From Methanobrevibacter sp. (GTDB lineage Archaea > Methanobacteriota > Methanobacteria > Methanobacteriales > Methanobacteriaceae): 64,000 nt of DNA. The notes beneath the pieces are model-generated. The model searched no databases and was not told where the DNA came from. It saw only the letters and a list, made by a program, of their open reading frames with translations. Each line of letters opens with the position of its first letter. Position 1 is the first letter of the stretch. The position numbers and the translations under genes are program-made. Of this stretch, positions 39,142-57,213 are shown in pieces. The stretch spans positions 1-64,000 of the forward strand of contig NZ_JAFYHP010000014.1 of assembly GCF_017539065.1 (NCBI RefSeq), read 5' to 3'.

Positions 39142-39182
39142 AGAAAAATTCTAATTTTAATAGCTATTAAACTAATTTTTCT
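39142..39182 (-). terminator. Two-part hairpin downstream of the dapL operon
   Basis: The inner palindrome TTTAATAG/CTATTAAA (39156-39171) and outer arms AGAAAAATT/AATTTTTCT (39142-39150 with 39174-39182) form a stem with an internal loop, 23 bp after the last stop codon. The minus-strand end runs into TTTTTCTTAAA. Confidence 0.5.
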
Positions 39183-51442: not shown

Positions 51443-51660
51443 GATAACCTATTGAGTTTTTCCATTAATATAATTAGTTATTTCTAACCGGGTAAAAATT
51501 ATCTATGTTTCCAAATAGATAATTTAAAAAAAGATTTTTGAATTATATTTTTTTAAAAAAGGAATTTTTAATACTCTAAGAGAGATTATTATTAATTTTA
51601 ATTTTAGAAAAACTAAAAGCTTATTTACTATTAAGTTTATATCATTTCATAGTGATTAAA

Positions 51661-52482
51661 ATGAGTTGCTGGAAATATTGGCCAAAAATAGAAGAAATTG
51701 CTAATAAGTTAGAAAATTATGGTGTCGACTCTTTAGATGACATATCTTCCTTAAATGATGTTGATTTAGATGAAGTTACCGCATTATTGGATGAAATTGA
51801 AGTTATTGCACATGACGAAACAATAGACTTTGATTCAGCAAAACACATCCTAGATGATGAAAAGATGAATAAGGCTCTAAAACTAATCAGAAAATTCTAT
51901 TTGTATATCGGTGCCAGACTGGAAACAAACAATGCACTGGAAATAATTGAGTCAGATGACCCTCATGCAACACTAGACAAGTTTCATTTCTATGAAAGAT
52001 ATCAGGGTTTGCTCACCAATGAATCCAAATTGGCACATTGGCATGAAGACAAAACCTTTGTCTTTGTTGGAAGCGGTCCTTTGCCATTGACTTTGATATT
52101 GTTCAGACAGAAATTCGGCTGCAAATGTATCGGTATCGAAATCCAGGAAGATGTTGCGGAATTGTCCAGGAAAGTCATAAAAAAATTGGGCCTTGATGAC
52201 GGCATAGAAATAATAGTCGGAGACGAAACAACCCTCAAAGACATTGATTATGACATACTAATGGTGGCAGCATTTGCCGAACCTAAAGAAAGAGTATTTT
52301 CGAATGTTTGGGAAATCGTTGATGAAAAAACACCTGTTCTTGTTAGAACATACAGTGGTATGAGAGCCATCCTTTATGCTCCATTAACCGATACCATCCT
52401 CAGAGGATTCCATAAAGAGGTAATGTTGCTTCCAATAGGAAACTCTAACAATACAAGTGTATTGCTAAGAAAAGTGGTTTAA
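51661..52482 (+). CDS. Nicotianamine synthase family protein
   Basis: A 273-residue protein of the archaeal nicotianamine-synthase-like family (MtNAS of Methanothermobacter, which makes thermonicotianamine from SAM and glutamate). An N-terminal helical domain (residues 1-115) precedes the Rossmann domain with FVFVGSGPLPLTLILF, KCIGIEIQEDVAELSRKV and VAAFAEPKERVF; LVRTYSGMRAILYAPL is typical. The start is ATG 51661; GTG 51652 belongs to the GTGATT ribosome-binding site. The product probably chelates nickel, iron or zinc. Confidence 0.88.
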   Translation: MSCWKYWPKIEEIANKLENYGVDSLDDISSLNDVDLDEVTALLDEIEVIAHDETIDFDSAKHILDDEKMNKALKLIRKFYLYIGARLETNNALEIIESDDPHATLDKFHFYERYQGLLTNESKLAHWHEDKTFVFVGSGPLPLTLILFRQKFGCKCIGIEIQEDVAELSRKVIKKLGLDDGIEIIVGDETTLKDIDYDILMVAAFAEPKERVFSNVWEIVDEKTPVLVRTYSGMRAILYAPLTDTILRGFHKEVMLLPIGNSNNTSVLLRKVV

Positions 52483-52519: not shown

Positions 52520-52541
52520 AGTAAACCTATTGAGGTTTACT
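52520..52541 (-). terminator. 9-bp terminator hairpin over the mtd stop codon
   Basis: AGTAAACCT (52520-52528) pairs with AGGTTTACT (52533-52541) with a 4-nt loop. The minus-strand TAG is 52527-52529, and TATTTTTTTTT follows on the minus strand. Confidence 0.75.
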
Positions 52542-53357
52542 GATAAGATCTGTTTTACAACCTGGATTTCCTTCTTTCATGTGAGGGGTTCTTAAAACAG
52601 TATCATTAGCTTTTTCGATTTCTCTTGCTTCCTGTGCTAATTTAGCAGCACATGCAGCAATTTCGTGAGCAGCAGCTACTAATGGGATGAAGTTTTCGAA
52701 ACCTTTTGTCATGAAACAACCTTTCATATCTAAGTTAGCAACGGATCCTGCCATTTCATAAGCAGCGATAGCTTTTGCTTTTGCGTATGGGTTAGCAAAT
52801 CCACCAGCTTCTGCAGCTTTTTCAGCAGTGACTATGAGTTTTGGTAATTCGATTGCTTCTCCAGCGTCAGCTTGAGCAATTACAGCATCAATGGTTTTTT
52901 GAACTAATCTTAATGCACCAGTTTCTGCAAGTACTTTTAAGATGTCTGAGTTGAAAATAGCCATTTCAGTTGGGTCTAACCATTCTCTTTTTGCACCAAT
53001 CATAGGATCAGACATCACGATAATGTAACCGAGACCTTGTTCGTCCATTTCATCTTTCTTACCTTTACCAGGTGCGTCACCAATGATAATAGCAGGGATA
53101 TCTTTAGCAGATAACATTTCTCTTGCTTTAGCTGGTCCAGGAGCTCCTGGGTTTGGGCTAATGAAAATTGCGAAATCAGGTTCGAAAGCGTCAATTTTAG
53201 GAACAACGTCTTCTACTTGTTCTGGGTTCATTTTTGCACCAGATCCAAATGTTCTTACATCGATATTTGGTCTGTCTGCTCTTTCGTCTAACAATAGGTC
53301 AATAACTGGTGAAGTACCAATATTACCACTTTTAATAATAGCAATTTTAACTACCAT
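52527..53357 (-). CDS. mtd: F420-dependent methylenetetrahydromethanopterin dehydrogenase
   Basis: A 276-residue Mtd, the enzyme that reduces methenyl-H4MPT to methylene-H4MPT with reduced F420 in methanogenesis from CO2. The opening VVKIAIIKSGNIGTSPVIDLLLDERADRP (shortened: IKSGNIGTSPVIDLL), the PNPGAPGPAKAREML stretch, SDPMIGAKREWLDPTEMA and the C-terminal RTPHMKEGNPG are characteristic. The start is 53357; the GTG at 53366 is part of the GTGAT ribosome-binding site. Its leader contains a strong inverted repeat followed by a T run. Confidence 0.97.
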   Translation of the reverse strand: MVVKIAIIKSGNIGTSPVIDLLLDERADRPNIDVRTFGSGAKMNPEQVEDVVPKIDAFEPDFAIFISPNPGAPGPAKAREMLSAKDIPAIIIGDAPGKGKKDEMDEQGLGYIIVMSDPMIGAKREWLDPTEMAIFNSDILKVLAETGALRLVQKTIDAVIAQADAGEAIELPKLIVTAEKAAEAGGFANPYAKAKAIAAYEMAGSVANLDMKGCFMTKGFENFIPLVAAAHEIAACAAKLAQEAREIEKANDTVLRTPHMKEGNPGCKTDLISKPQ

Positions 53358-53396
53358 AATTATCACATCAAATTTTTCTAAAATTTTTTAAAAAAA

Positions 53397-53440
53397 AATA
53401 GCTATTAAAGACTAGAGGAGAGATTGCTTTAATAGCTATT
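53397..53440 (-). promoter_or_regulatory. 14-bp perfect inverted repeat in the mtd leader
   Basis: AATAGCTATTAAAG (53397-53410) and CTTTAATAGCTATT (53427-53440) are perfect partners with a 16-nt spacer. Each arm contains the self-complementary AATAGCTATT. On the minus strand the repeat is followed by nine T and lies about 40 bp before the mtd ATG. A TATA-like element near 53460-53474 would start transcription at its upstream edge. It is either a leader terminator (attenuator) or a pair of operators with centres 34 bp apart. Confidence 0.6.
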
Positions 53441-53462
53441 GTAGACAGTGAAAGAAACCTAT

Positions 53463-53687
53463 ATGAGTATACAAATTTCTTTTTTTATTAATTATCATTA
53501 CATTGATGGAGAAAATAAAAGCAATATTGACTGGTTATGCCAGCAGCCAGCATCACTTTTGGCTAATGATGAAATATATCAACATAAGATAATCAACATG
53601 AAAAACAGCCAAAATATTCTCTATTTTAACTATTTTTCTAACATTAGTGATGTCTCACTAATCTTAGAAAGACAGCTAAAGAGTTAA
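53463..53687 (+). CDS. Doubtful small open reading frame, 74 residues
   Basis: MSIQISFFINYHYIDG... has a plausible amino-acid mix (a few aromatic, Asn and Ser residues, one Cys-Gln-Gln-Pro stretch) but no ribosome-binding site and no recognised family. The frame can be extended to a GTG at 53448. It lies between two AATAGCTATT-type repeats in the space between mtd and the MvhD-like gene, so it may be a chance frame within a regulatory region. Confidence 0.25.
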   Translation: MSIQISFFINYHYIDGENKSNIDWLCQQPASLLANDEIYQHKIINMKNSQNILYFNYFSNISDVSLILERQLKS

Positions 53688-53688
53688 A

Positions 53689-53715
53689 GTAAATAGCTAA
53701 TTAATAGCTATTTAC
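53689..53715. repeat. 11-bp inverted repeat containing AATAGCTATT
   Basis: GTAAATAGCTA (53689-53699) and TAGCTATTTAC (53705-53715) are perfect partners with a 5-nt spacer, 26 bp downstream of the MvhD-like stop. It may end the flp-like transcript or bind the same protein as the mtd leader repeat. Confidence 0.5.
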
Positions 53716-53740
53716 AGTGTGACTGGCTATTTTTTAAACT

Positions 53741-54145
53741 CTATTTTAATTCCAATGGACCCAATTTTGTGAGAGTTTTATGGAATTCCTCCATTGTTGT
53801 TTGGAATTTTTCTCCTTCTGATGCGGAGATCCATTCATGGCGGAACCTTTCCTTTTCAATCCCAAATTCCTCAAGAATGTCTTCTACAATTTTGGAACGT
53901 CTGGACCATTTGTAGTTACCTGCATCATAATGACAGTCCCCAATATGGCAACCTCCTACAAATACTCCATCAGCACCTTCATCAAAGGCTTTGAAAATCA
54001 TTGAAGGATTAATTCTTCCGGAACACATTACACGAATGATTCTAACATTTGGAGGATATTGCATACGTGCAGTTCCTGCAGTATCTGCACCTCCGTAACA
54101 ACACCAATTACATAATAAACCAACAATTTTTAAATCATCAGACAT
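53741..54145 (-). CDS. flpD: MvhD/FlpD-type iron-sulfur electron-transfer protein
   Basis: A 134-residue protein of the MvhD family (PF02662), which in methanogens links hydrogenase or formate dehydrogenase to heterodisulfide reductase. The conserved cysteines are in [22 protein letters not shown] and [14 protein letters not shown], ligands of a [2Fe-2S] cluster. Here it follows FdhB- and FdhA-like genes rather than MvhGA. This resembles the flp genes (fdh-like) that lie near mvh in Methanothermobacter, so the symbol is provisional. It is the last gene of a four-gene unit. Confidence 0.88.
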
Positions 54146-54154
54146 TAAACCACC

Positions 54155-55291
54155 TCATAACTCCACTTTATCTGGACTGTATAACGGAGGTTTGCTATCA
54201 GTTGAAACTCCGGCTACATAACCAGTTCTATTACAATATTTTTTCTGCAATTTGTCAAAAATCAATGAAACAGGAATATCCATCGGACATACGTCATCAC
54301 ATTGGCCACAGTCACAACAACTGAAACTCATATGGGACAATCTAACCCCCTGAAAAGCAATAGGGCTTGGAGGTATATCTTTCTCATCAAAGTAAGATTT
54401 GTTAAGCTCACAATTTTCATAACACCAACAGATTGGGCAAATATCCCGGCAAGCATAACAACTTATGCATCTGCTCCAGTCATCGATTCCATTAACTGAA
54501 GGATAAGTTGCATCTTGATTTTTCTTAGCCATTTTTATCATGATGTTTTCAACTTTGGATCTTCCTTCAACTGCAGCATCACTCGGTGATTTAGTTTCTA
54601 GAATTCCAGCTTTTTTAGCACCGTCAATTAATTCCTGGCCTTTTTCATCATTAATTTCAATGAATGTCCATCCGTCTTCTGCTCCCCAGTTCCCACATGC
54701 AAGGTTTGCTTTTCTAGGGATTTTAACATCACATCTTTGACAGTTATTACGACGACCATAACCTTTTTCTTCCAAATCATGGATTTTGACAGCTTCTTCA
54801 CTTCCATCAGCAAGTTCAATTATGAATTGTCCTTTATCAATTTCTTCTGAAATAACATCATCAGGATTAGCTTCATAGAACAAATCAATCATTTTTCTAC
54901 CAGACACTGGAGAAACGGTACCTCCACAATTTAAACCAATTGTATAAAGATTATCCGGATTGATTTTGTGTCTTTTAATAAGCTCATCAATTGATCTTAT
55001 ATCACATGGCTTTACAGAAACTGCAATTTTTTTATCTATAAGGTATTTTTGAATTAGGTCCCCAACCATTGTTGGAGCACAGTGATAAGAACCTGCAGTT
55101 CCGATTAAATCTTCAGAATTAGTAATAAGTGTTGGCACACCATCATAAACATCATCACAAGGGCGTAAAGCCAAAACACCATCAACAAGGCCTTCGTCTA
55201 ATAAATATTTGAAAATACTAGTGACTGCTCCTCCACATTCACCAGCTTTATGAATCTCTTCATCTTTAGATTTAGCTAAAACATAACTCAT
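54155..55291 (-). CDS. flpB: F420-reducing FdhB/FrhB-like subunit
   Basis: A 378-residue protein starting at 55291 (MSYVLAKSKDEEIHKAGECGG). The N-terminal half is the F420/FAD domain of FrhB/FdhB (AGECGGAVTSIFKYLLDEG, VSVKPCDIRSIDEL, NNCQRCDVKIPRKANLACGNW, shortened: CQRCDVKIPR). The C-terminal 120 residues bind two [4Fe-4S] clusters (CISCYACRDICPICW, CCDCGQCDDVCP). It should exchange electrons between F420 and iron-sulfur partners. Its partner downstream is MvhD-like and upstream is a half-length FdhA-like protein. Confidence 0.9.
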   Translation of the reverse strand: MSYVLAKSKDEEIHKAGECGGAVTSIFKYLLDEGLVDGVLALRPCDDVYDGVPTLITNSEDLIGTAGSYHCAPTMVGDLIQKYLIDKKIAVSVKPCDIRSIDELIKRHKINPDNLYTIGLNCGGTVSPVSGRKMIDLFYEANPDDVISEEIDKGQFIIELADGSEEAVKIHDLEEKGYGRRNNCQRCDVKIPRKANLACGNWGAEDGWTFIEINDEKGQELIDGAKKAGILETKSPSDAAVEGRSKVENIMIKMAKKNQDATYPSVNGIDDWSRCISCYACRDICPICWCYENCELNKSYFDEKDIPPSPIAFQGVRLSHMSFSCCDCGQCDDVCPMDIPVSLIFDKLQKKYCNRTGYVAGVSTDSKPPLYSPDKVEL

Positions 55292-55305
55292 AAAAATCCC
55301 CCAAA

Positions 55306-56334
55306 TCAACCTTTAATTTTTTCAATAACTTCCTCAACACTTAACACATCAGATTCCATAACCGGAACAAATGTTTGAGTTTCGCCCATCGCATTTACGA
55401 CAGAACCTTCATACTCTAACCAAGATTTGATCGGAATAACAATATCTGAAATTTCAGTGGTGTTATTTTTAAATGCAGAAAAACTAATTACCTTAGATAT
55501 GGATTTGAAATCAAAATCAAAATCGTCCACTACATCATCATTAAAGATTAACAAAACTTTGGTATCATTCAATGCTTCAATGATTTCCTCTTTTGAATTG
55601 GAATCGGCAATACTTAAGATACCTTTTGTATTAGTTTTACTATATACCGGCAATATTTTAAATCCTAACTCTTCAATCTTATCCAAATCATCTTCACAAT
55701 CAACAGTGTTAAATACCACTACAGATGAATCATCTAAATTATCTTTATAAGTATCTAGGAATTCCTGAACAGAACCGGAAGTTGTTTCATCAGAAATGTT
55801 TGCAGTTACGGATTTTTCAGCTTTAATATTAGAAAATATTTTTGCTCCATTCTGTTTTGCATGAACAATTCTTCTTCCAATTAAAGGATTCTCATACAAA
55901 ACGTCACCAATAACTAAAACACAAGATGCATCTTCAACATCATCATAGGAAGCAACATCTTCAAAGTTCCTTAAATCATCAGCATAGAATACTAAATCAA
56001 GATTTTTCTCCTCACTAAAAGATTTAATTGCTTCAGCATCAGCTAAACTGTTGTTTCCAGATAAGAATACTGTAACCTTATCATTAGCATTAATTTCTTT
56101 GGAAACTTCCGCAAATGCCTTATCCAAATCAACATTTGCCTGAGAGATACTAGCTTCATTTATTTTATTTACAAAATTTCCAATAGAATTTCTTCCATTT
56201 GCACAATTTTTTCCTGCATTTACCGGATGTCTTTTGTATGGAAAAGTACCAACAACCGCATTATTCTCCAAAATCACATTAATACCACAACCAACACTAC
56301 ATGAAGGGCATAACGTGTGTTTAATTTCTAACAT
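55306..56334 (-). CDS. flpC: Half-length FdhA-like molybdopterin oxidoreductase homologue
   Basis: A 342-residue protein, about half of a formate dehydrogenase alpha subunit. The N-terminal [4Fe-4S] motif is present (CPSCSVGCG, then GKNCANG near residue 44). The next segments (VTVFLSGNNSLADAEAIKSF, CVLVIGDVLYENPLIGRRI, IVIPIKSWLEYEGSVVNAMGETQ, shortened) follow the Rossmann-like domain of the superfamily. The region with the catalytic Cys/Sec and His and the C-terminal cofactor-binding domain are absent. It is not truncated by a frameshift: no remainder is found upstream or downstream. It may serve as an electron-transfer or scaffold subunit rather than an enzyme. Confidence 0.8.
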   Translation of the reverse strand: MLEIKHTLCPSCSVGCGINVILENNAVVGTFPYKRHPVNAGKNCANGRNSIGNFVNKINEASISQANVDLDKAFAEVSKEINANDKVTVFLSGNNSLADAEAIKSFSEEKNLDLVFYADDLRNFEDVASYDDVEDASCVLVIGDVLYENPLIGRRIVHAKQNGAKIFSNIKAEKSVTANISDETTSGSVQEFLDTYKDNLDDSSVVVFNTVDCEDDLDKIEELGFKILPVYSKTNTKGILSIADSNSKEEIIEALNDTKVLLIFNDDVVDDFDFDFKSISKVISFSAFKNNTTEISDIVIPIKSWLEYEGSVVNAMGETQTFVPVMESDVLSVEEVIEKIKG

Positions 56335-56348
56335 AATACATCACCAAA

Positions 56349-56714
56349 TTAGTTAAAAAGAGTACTTGAAATATGTTCACTGCCAAAATCTGATAAATTA
56401 TCCGGATTTGATAAAATATGAGTTGATTCTCTAGTTAATGAGATCATATCCATCAAAATAGAACATGATTTATGGAAAATTAATTTGGAAACATCTTCTT
56501 GAATGAATTTTTCCAAAGCATATAATTCCACAACCCCCTCTATTTTAAAATCTACACAAAATTGATGTAAAGACTTTAAAATCATGTTAAATCTTACTTG
56601 ATTTTTATCAGTATCCCAATATTCAACTGACCAATCAATATCTAAATTTAAATTTGAATTTTTTGGATTAACATCCGGCCTTATCATCGCAATTTTTTGC
56701 ACGTATATTTTCAT
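56349..56714 (-). CDS. Unknown protein at the head of the flp-like unit, 121 residues
   Basis: The start at 56714 (MKIYVQKIAMIRPDV) has GGGGAGTAGG directly upstream. It is a soluble protein with beta strands in the first half (LDIDWSVEYWDTDKNQVRFNMIL, shortened: DWSVEYW) and a helical second half containing KFIQEDVSKLIFHKSCSILMDMISLTRES (shortened: FIQEDVSKLIF). The layout recalls SecB-like chaperone folds, but I could not confirm this. It starts the operon (14 bp before the FdhA-like gene), so it may be an assembly chaperone or a subunit of that complex. Confidence 0.6.
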   Translation of the reverse strand: MKIYVQKIAMIRPDVNPKNSNLNLDIDWSVEYWDTDKNQVRFNMILKSLHQFCVDFKIEGVVELYALEKFIQEDVSKLIFHKSCSILMDMISLTRESTHILSNPDNLSDFGSEHISSTLFN

Positions 56715-57213
56715 CCTACTCCCCAACAATTATTACATTTTTATTAAAATTATCCAATTAAGAATTTAATTAAATAATCTACAATATAGTAATGAGTAAT
56801 AACTATATAAATCTTTTTAAAGTATTACATTGAATTTTTGAGCTTTAAAAATAAAATAAATGATTCTAAGGGATTTAATTTTTTTATAAATATCATAAAC
56901 GAGTAATTGAAAAGAATTCTAAATCGTGCATTCCTTAATTAAAATTAGTAATAATTCTTAAAAAAAATAGCAAATTAGAAATCGGCAACTAAATTTCAAA
57001 TAAGACTATTTAAAGAAATTAAATTGAAAAAACAACAGAAATAGAAATTTTTATAAAAAATAAACAATGCCATGATGAAATATAGTTAAAAAAGTATTGA
57101 GTATAATAATTAAATTAAGTAATACTTTTTCTAAATTTATTACTACTTTAAAACATACAAATTTATAAAAAAGTATTATAAAAATATCTAAGATTAAAAA
57201 TAGAAAGACAAAT
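56715..57213. other. 499-bp A+T-rich region: flp-like promoter and no visible gene
   Basis: No coding frame, tRNA or repeat array is seen. A minus-strand TATA box TTTATATAG (plus 56784-56792) would start the flp-like message near 56762, giving a leader of about 48 nt. Farther right, AAAAAGTATT (57089-57098) and AATACTTTTT (57121-57130) form a 10-bp inverted repeat, with a third copy at 57167-57177. Confidence 0.5.

Follow-up and report, generated by a model that had tools for sequence, protein, structure and literature searches.

A conserved structured RNA behind flpD in Methanobrevibacter with predicted pairing to the mvhDGAB message

The inverted repeats surrounding the mtd gene in a 64,000-nucleotide stretch of Methanobrevibacter sp. 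DNA (contig NZ_JAFYHP010000014.1, positions 1 to 64,000; here called the window) correspond, judging from comparison with relatives, to hairpins P1 and P5 of a single conserved structured RNA of ~351 nt, designated RNA-1. RNA-1 keeps its structure and its place behind flpD across relatives, and a linker between its last two hairpins is complementary to the end of the hydrogenase gene mvhA. We consider it probable that RNA-1, the tail of the flp operon, acts as a regulatory RNA: it would base-pair with mvhDGAB mRNA shortly upstream of mvhB and reduce H2-dependent Mvh.

Methanobrevibacter species are the source of much of the methane from the rumen and gut. To our knowledge, little is known about what determines whether they draw on H2 or on other electron sources. 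If the above reading is true, an RNA linking a formate dehydrogenase-like operon with the mRNA of Mvh hydrogenase would offer a definite control point open to experiment, and would give an example of a large operon-tail RNA acting in trans in an archaeon.

Results

The repeats around mtd and the structure of RNA-1

The preliminary description of this DNA, made from the sequence alone, had pointed to a perfect 14-bp inverted repeat followed by nine T about 40 bp before mtd, to be read as a terminator, and to a further exact AATAGCTATT within another inverted repeat. Both observations are borne out by the sequence. The 14-bp repeat (Table 1) lies 40 bp from the mtd ATG (53357) and is followed on the transcribed (minus) strand by the nine T, two of which are part of the repeat itself, while the third AATAGCTATT copy sits within an inverted repeat of its own. 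The mtd leader folds more stably than its shuffles (z = −3.16). The terminator proposal likewise finds support, P5 being a terminator-like hairpin that is kept in the 40 aligned relatives and is followed by at least five T within the next 8 nt in 32 of them. A repeated TTAATAGCTATT...ACAGTG had also been described; both strings are present in the window, but the ACAGTG next to the second TTAATAGCTATT copy is not conserved in the aligned relatives, so the likeness between the two is accidental.

TABLE 1 Positions of the genes, repeats and predicted RNA elements in the window
Feature	Position	Strand	Remarks
mtd, F420-dependent methylene-H4MPT dehydrogenase	52530..53357	-	NF002162, 442 bits; next gene downstream of RNA-1
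RNA-1 (predicted structured RNA)	53390..53740	-	flpD stop codon to terminator hairpin, 351 nt; ends approximate; alignment A1 of 40 relatives
Predicted terminal hairpin P5	53397..53440	-	Same as the 14-bp repeat, T run 3'; 14 pairs, 95.9% of cells paired
Left arm of inverted repeat	53397-53410		AATAGCTATTAAAG
Right arm of inverted repeat	53427-53440		CTTTAATAGCTATT, exact reverse complement of AATAGCTATTAAAG
Stretch AGGTTTCTTTCACTGTCTACAATA	53437..53460	-	24 nt, one G-U, complementary to mvhA 3' end
Linker CACUGUCUAC between P4 and P5	53441..53450	-	Alignment columns 372-381
Predicted hairpin P4	53451..53482	-	14 pairs, 88.5% paired; GGUUUC on the 3' strand supplies the 5' portion of the antisense stretch
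Predicted long-range helix P3	53487..53597	-	21 pairs, 92.7% paired; encloses P3a
P3a, predicted inner hairpin of P3	53558-53520	-	14 pairs, 11 changed on both sides; 73.5% paired
Predicted hairpin P2	53625..53680	-	UCUUUCUAAGAUUAGU / ACUAAUGUUAGAAAGA type; 25 pairs, 93.5% of cells paired
Predicted hairpin P1	53688..53716	-	Contains AATAGCTATT (53703-53712); 16 pairs, 10 changed on both sides; 86.8% paired
Predicted helix P0	53731-53725 with 53610-53604	-	Closes the multiloop holding P1 and P2; 7 pairs, 84.5% paired
FlpD/MvhD-like gene	53741..54145	-	PF02662 FlpD, 4.9e-55; directly upstream of RNA-1
FrhB/FdhB-like gene, same operon	54155..55309	-	PF04432, PF04422
Short FdhA-like gene (Fe4S4 plus part of molybdopterin domain)	55306..56334	-	PF04879, PF00384; in 46 of 67 genus genomes
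First gene of the flp operon	56349..56729	-	No family match
flp promoter element TAATACTTTAAAAAGATTTATATAGTTATTAC	56796..56827	-	Type also preceding RNA-2 genes in relatives

The FlpD, FrhB/FdhB, Fe4S4-molybdopterin, NiFe-hydrogenase and mtd labels derive from profile matches; the names flp, mvhG and mvhB and the label ferritin are putative and follow short motifs.

Alignment A1 comprises 40 longer stretches from relatives and excludes the first RNA copy of locus L190, which at 238 nt lacks P1 and P2. The structure drawn on it has 112 pairs in eight helices, and 89.1% of its 4257 cells pair, against 35.0 to 49.2% when the partners were slid as a control. Pairs changed on both sides numbered 47, compared with 27.4 in shuffles and 19 to 30 on sliding, and in 500 shuffles no measure came up to its observed value, the structure having been derived from the same sequences as were counted, which favours it; the both-side changes in P1, P3 and P3a are not a consequence of this derivation. 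In P1, AAATAGCTA/TAGCTATTT gives way in relatives to GAATAGTTAT/ATAACTATTC, with the pairing kept and the AATAGCTATT word lost. The same helices recur in predicted folds of −84 to −105 kcal/mol (13 shown). Between P4 and P5, which flank it, the linker is predicted to be mostly unpaired (mean unpaired probability 0.56 to 0.89); its columns are identical in 38 to 40 of the 40 rows, except for column 372 (34/40).

Alignment of the 450 nt upstream in 31 loci revealed conservation of the whole interval from the FlpD/MvhD-like gene to the hairpin, with this gene as the upstream neighbour in all 31. The linker core was present in 41/41 distinct flpD-downstream stretches, including one shortened RNA without P1 and P2, a count that is no frequency since many loci were chosen because they bear the RNA, the fairer figure being 41 of 46 FlpC-bearing genomes. 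No promoter of RNA-1's own was recognised.

Searches against Rfam 15 gave no match at the cut-off in the window or in five RNA-bearing loci, only weak matches far below it, and no prior description of RNA-1 was found in Rfam 15 or among the matches listed in open-licence PMC papers. Archaeal RNase P RNA (RF00373) was considered and rejected, the RNase P RNA of this genome lying at C9:107449-107730. A virus-borne element was also rejected, a search of IMG/VR with one 22-base pattern having returned no match.

Distribution of the RNA and its relationship with flp and mtd genes

The pattern CACTRTN{2,7}AATAGCTAT had a match in 39 of 67 genus genomes, compared with four matches in total for its reversed control over the same 67, and CACTGTCTACAATAGCTAT was found exactly in 30 of these genomes and as a one-letter variant in 3 more. 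Covariance model R1, built from P1 and P2, finds the family in 44 of the 67. Across the order, R1 again recovered 44 of 150 genomes, all of them in Methanobrevibacter, one genus of 19, under strict filters with which weak copies may be lost. A FlpC-like gene is carried by 46 of the 67 genomes: RNA and FlpC-like gene occur together in 41, FlpC alone in 5, the RNA alone in 3 and neither in 18. Four of the five FlpC-only genomes have a FlpC that is just 38 to 42% identical.

Two further observations concern these operons. At L190 (G001:C2:233500-243500) there are two flp-type operons in tandem with an RNA behind each flpD, the first being the shortened form without P1 and P2. A FlpC-like gene with an internal TGA was seen in G025 (C25:53635-54632) and G056 (C2:84398-85444), where the gene may be broken, the codon may be read through or the sequence may be in error.

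The upstream stretches of mtd were compared at 53 of 75 loci plus the window. An ordinary promoter without such a hairpin is seen in most, contrary to what the attenuator proposed in the preliminary description would lead one to expect, and a few share a AGGTTTCTTTCACTGTCTACAATAGCTATT...CTTTAATAGCTAT block. Only 8 of the 67 genomes have mtd right behind the RNA, within ~200 nt (G000, the genome of the window, G021, G043, G047, G048, G052, G057 and G065; contig ends may hide others), so the RNA is not simply an mtd leader. The next gene behind it differs in other genomes, one such neighbour being what we take to be a ferritin-like gene. G000 itself has a second mtd (C9:25294-26118), 97% identical, whose promoter is ordinary and which lacks the hairpin. 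After this comparison and the genus-wide pattern search, a leader or attenuator of mtd was rejected as the general function of the element. The Hmd gene is present in the window's genome, and no link between it and the mtd-leader hairpin was found.

Convergent with mtd, on the plus strand of the window at 51652-52482, lies a nicotianamine synthase-like gene (PF03059, CntL-like). An mtd 97% identical to that of the window was also encountered in L051 (JAFRCV010000017.1), a sequence titled Erysipelotrichaceae bacterium that is probably a mixed or mislabelled MAG.

The linker region is complementary to the end of mvhA

When the RNA was compared with the genus by BLAST, many genomes gave a 42-nt match of 86% identity that was not a copy of the RNA. 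In three examples this match ran antisense to the final part of mvhA ([NiFe]-hydrogenase large subunit, PF00374), a gene encoded at a locus apart from RNA-1. The mvhA codons opposite AGGTTTCTTTCACTGTCTACAATA encode (D/N)IVDSEGNL, and the pairing stops ~35 nt short of the start codon of mvhB, which follows mvhA. Allowing up to three mismatches, GGTTTCYTTCACTGTCTACAATA had matches in 56 of the 67 genomes and its reversed control a single match; those inspected were the RNA or mvhA, apart from four with two to three mismatches in other ORFs.

Pairing energies point to the same site. Among 22 genomes tried, two (G040 and G041) were dropped as no mvhA frame was recognised in the locus; in 20 of the 20 evaluated, the best site for the linker within mvhA was that at the mvhA end, at −25.4 to −37.6 kcal/mol, versus −11.7 to −17.0 for the next best mvhA site and −22.6 for the most stable among 100 shuffled linkers. 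When the P5 loop was added and the scoring extended beyond mvhA to 12 to 13 kb in three genomes, the values were −50.0 (G008), −66.2 (G031) and −57.1 (G063), against −34.7, −36.8 and −34.8, respectively, for the next unrelated sites. The complementary core coincides with the predicted unpaired part of RNA-1, and P4 buries the GGTTTC of the antisense stretch. This GGTTTC is lost in the group formed by G004, G005, G019, G022 and G035, and the four of these that were evaluated nevertheless pair at −25.4 to −28.5. Complementarity is also broken at column 372 in up to 6 of the 40 RNAs and at column 373 in two (G003 and G027).

In G048, the only genome whose RNA has CACTATC, one of the two mvhA copies carries the matching synonymous change, the single natural paired change observed, and the second copy does not match the variant. 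The seven codons of the site are synonymously invariant in 12/12 RNA-bearing genomes, with G006, G023 and G029 differing among nine genomes without the RNA; G019, an RNA-bearing genome, has an amino acid change and a mismatch at the site. As proof of pairing, this codon constraint is weak, the sample having been gathered through similarity to the site and the mvhA end being conserved anyway (11 of 476 windows are equally invariant in RNA-bearing genomes). Five genomes that lack the RNA (G010, G012, G014, G032 and G054) also have a perfect site, so the RNA is not needed for the mvhA sequence to stay unchanged.

No match to mvhA was found in the window's own assembly, G000 (93.7% complete), and the target here is thus assumed from relatives; the related G063 carries both the RNA and mvhA. 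In nine genomes examined, three with the RNA and six without, mvhDGAB occupies its own locus with the same neighbours, which leaves an origin of the RNA from a broken flp-mvh operon unsupported. That the mvhA end might serve an integrating element as its attachment site, an idea suggested by the likeness, was set aside as the RNA keeps its place behind flpD.

Overall, on sequence and modelled energies, RNA-1 appears to combine two of the properties expected of a trans-acting base-pairing sRNA, namely an exposed pairing region in a structured RNA and conserved complementarity, beyond chance, to an mRNA encoded at another locus.

The flp promoter and a second RNA type

The promoter element at the head of the flp operon is of the type TAATACTTTAAWAA..TTTATAT..TTATTAC. 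Among 20 sources scanned, this type precedes flp in G008, G013, G050 and G063, and it also precedes a second kind of RNA, RNA-2, in G013, G015, G050 and G053. Around its TATA box there is an inverted repeat (GTAATAC...GTTATTAC type), common to RNA-2 genes, that by its sequence resembles an operator serving a small regulon.

Across the 11 aligned genomes, RNA-2 has P1 and P2 as in RNA-1, in most cases a terminal hairpin of its own, and no linker; it was matched in at least four more. An example is G008:C1:395829-396189 (L189, 9830-10190), with an flp-type promoter, P1, P2 and a terminator-like hairpin. The window's genome shows a weak RNA-2 likeness at G000:C16:36941-37081, and copies without P2 also occur, for instance near hmd in G020. 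One RNA-2 was run by BLAST over the genus, which recovered the promoter before flp and no recognisable common antisense target.

Discussion

Several other explanations of the repeats and of the mvhA complementarity have to be weighed. That AATAGCTATT serves a DNA-binding regulator as its operator is barely credible. The word does occur five times in the window versus 0.17 expected from shuffles, and the two members of a palindrome pair are spaced 34 bp apart. However, when the stretches round all 37 copies in the whole 1.84-Mb assembly were placed, 29 fell within an ORF (a mechanical one of at least 80 aa) and 8 outside, so the excess is mostly coding sequence and the sites, which are not concentrated in promoters of related genes, do not form the operator family that had been envisaged. 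The copies around mtd are RNA stems that covary, and P1 goes on pairing in relatives with other letters, unlike a fixed operator; the copy at 39159, in a hairpin (39156-39171) that had been counted into the same family, is a separate intergenic site. Control of mtd by P5 as an attenuator is very unlikely, too. The hairpin and its T run do stand 40 bp in front of mtd, and mtd follows the RNA in eight of the 67 genomes, yet the RNA is retained with other genes or with nothing downstream, and most mtd genes are without it. In the window's genome, read-through control of mtd across P5 is possible.

Two further alternatives accept the RNA and question the pairing. One, which is unlikely, is that the mvhA likeness is a relic, the 3' part of RNA-1 having originated as a copy of the mvhA end in antisense orientation and now serving another purpose. 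As a copied piece would, the likeness extends beyond the linker into the P5 loop and further, and the mvhA site is perfect in the five RNA-lacking genomes. A relic should drift, however, whereas few parts of the RNA vary as little as the linker (identical in 38 to 40 of the 40 rows, column 372 excepted); moreover, the P5 stem, flanked by the matching parts, is not itself matched in mvhA, and the paired change in G048 also argues against mere descent. The other alternative, which we regard as unlikely, is a scaffold or protein-binding RNA (RNP) whose linker is conserved for a protein. The size of the RNA, its seven to eight helices and the strong predicted folds would fit such a role, as would the RNA-2 type, with P1 and P2 and without the linker; a complementarity of 23 to 24 nt to one mRNA would be left unexplained.

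Our preferred reading, a regulatory RNA directed at the mvhDGAB message, would operate as follows. RNA-1 would be made as the 3' tail of the flp operon message, ending at the P5 hairpin and T run, and would be stable enough to act. With the flp operon on, RNA-1, either freed or still joined to the operon message, would expose the P4-P5 linker, which in the cell would pair with the mvhDGAB message over the last mvhA codons, ~35 nt before the mvhB start codon. Such pairing would lower the output of Mvh hydrogenase, that of mvhB first and perhaps that of mvhA as well, the expectation of a lower mvhB output being based on analogy with Methanosarcina mazei sRNA162. The presumed metabolic reason is that the electron routes through the flp proteins and through H2 would thereby not both run at full strength. 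In the window's genome, mtd could perhaps be reached by read-through behind RNA-1.

More tentatively, RNA-1 as the flp tail and RNA-2 as the product of an flp promoter copy may be large RNAs restricted to Methanobrevibacter that together make up a post-transcriptional circuit. In this two-RNA scheme, which we regard as plausible but less likely than not, expression of the flp route would silence Mvh by antisense pairing at the mvhA-mvhB junction, with one promoter choosing the electron donor.

Under the regulatory reading, RNA-1 is a base-pairing regulatory RNA of a known kind, yet large, located at an operon tail and forming a family of its own. Its closest counterpart in way of working is sRNA162 of M. 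mazei, which is reported to pair through a single-stranded linker within a bicistronic mRNA, most likely to repress the second cistron by masking its ribosome-binding site, and has been proposed to act in discoordinate operon expression and substrate switch (PMC3510493). Like it, RNA-1 is a methanogen RNA with a single-stranded linker, predicted to pair within an mRNA of several cistrons, close to where a later cistron starts. Unlike sRNA162, for which there is bench proof, RNA-1 is a predicted ~350-nt operon tail, and its predicted pairing ends ~35 nt before the mvhB start instead of masking a ribosome-binding site.

With intrinsic terminators and attenuators RNA-1 shares P5 and the T run; it differs from them in that several conserved helices precede P5 and the downstream gene varies. 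In bacteria, regulatory RNAs derived from 3' UTRs provide cases of an RNA from the end of an operon acting on another message. Like these, RNA-1, lying at the end of an operon message, would couple two sets of genes.
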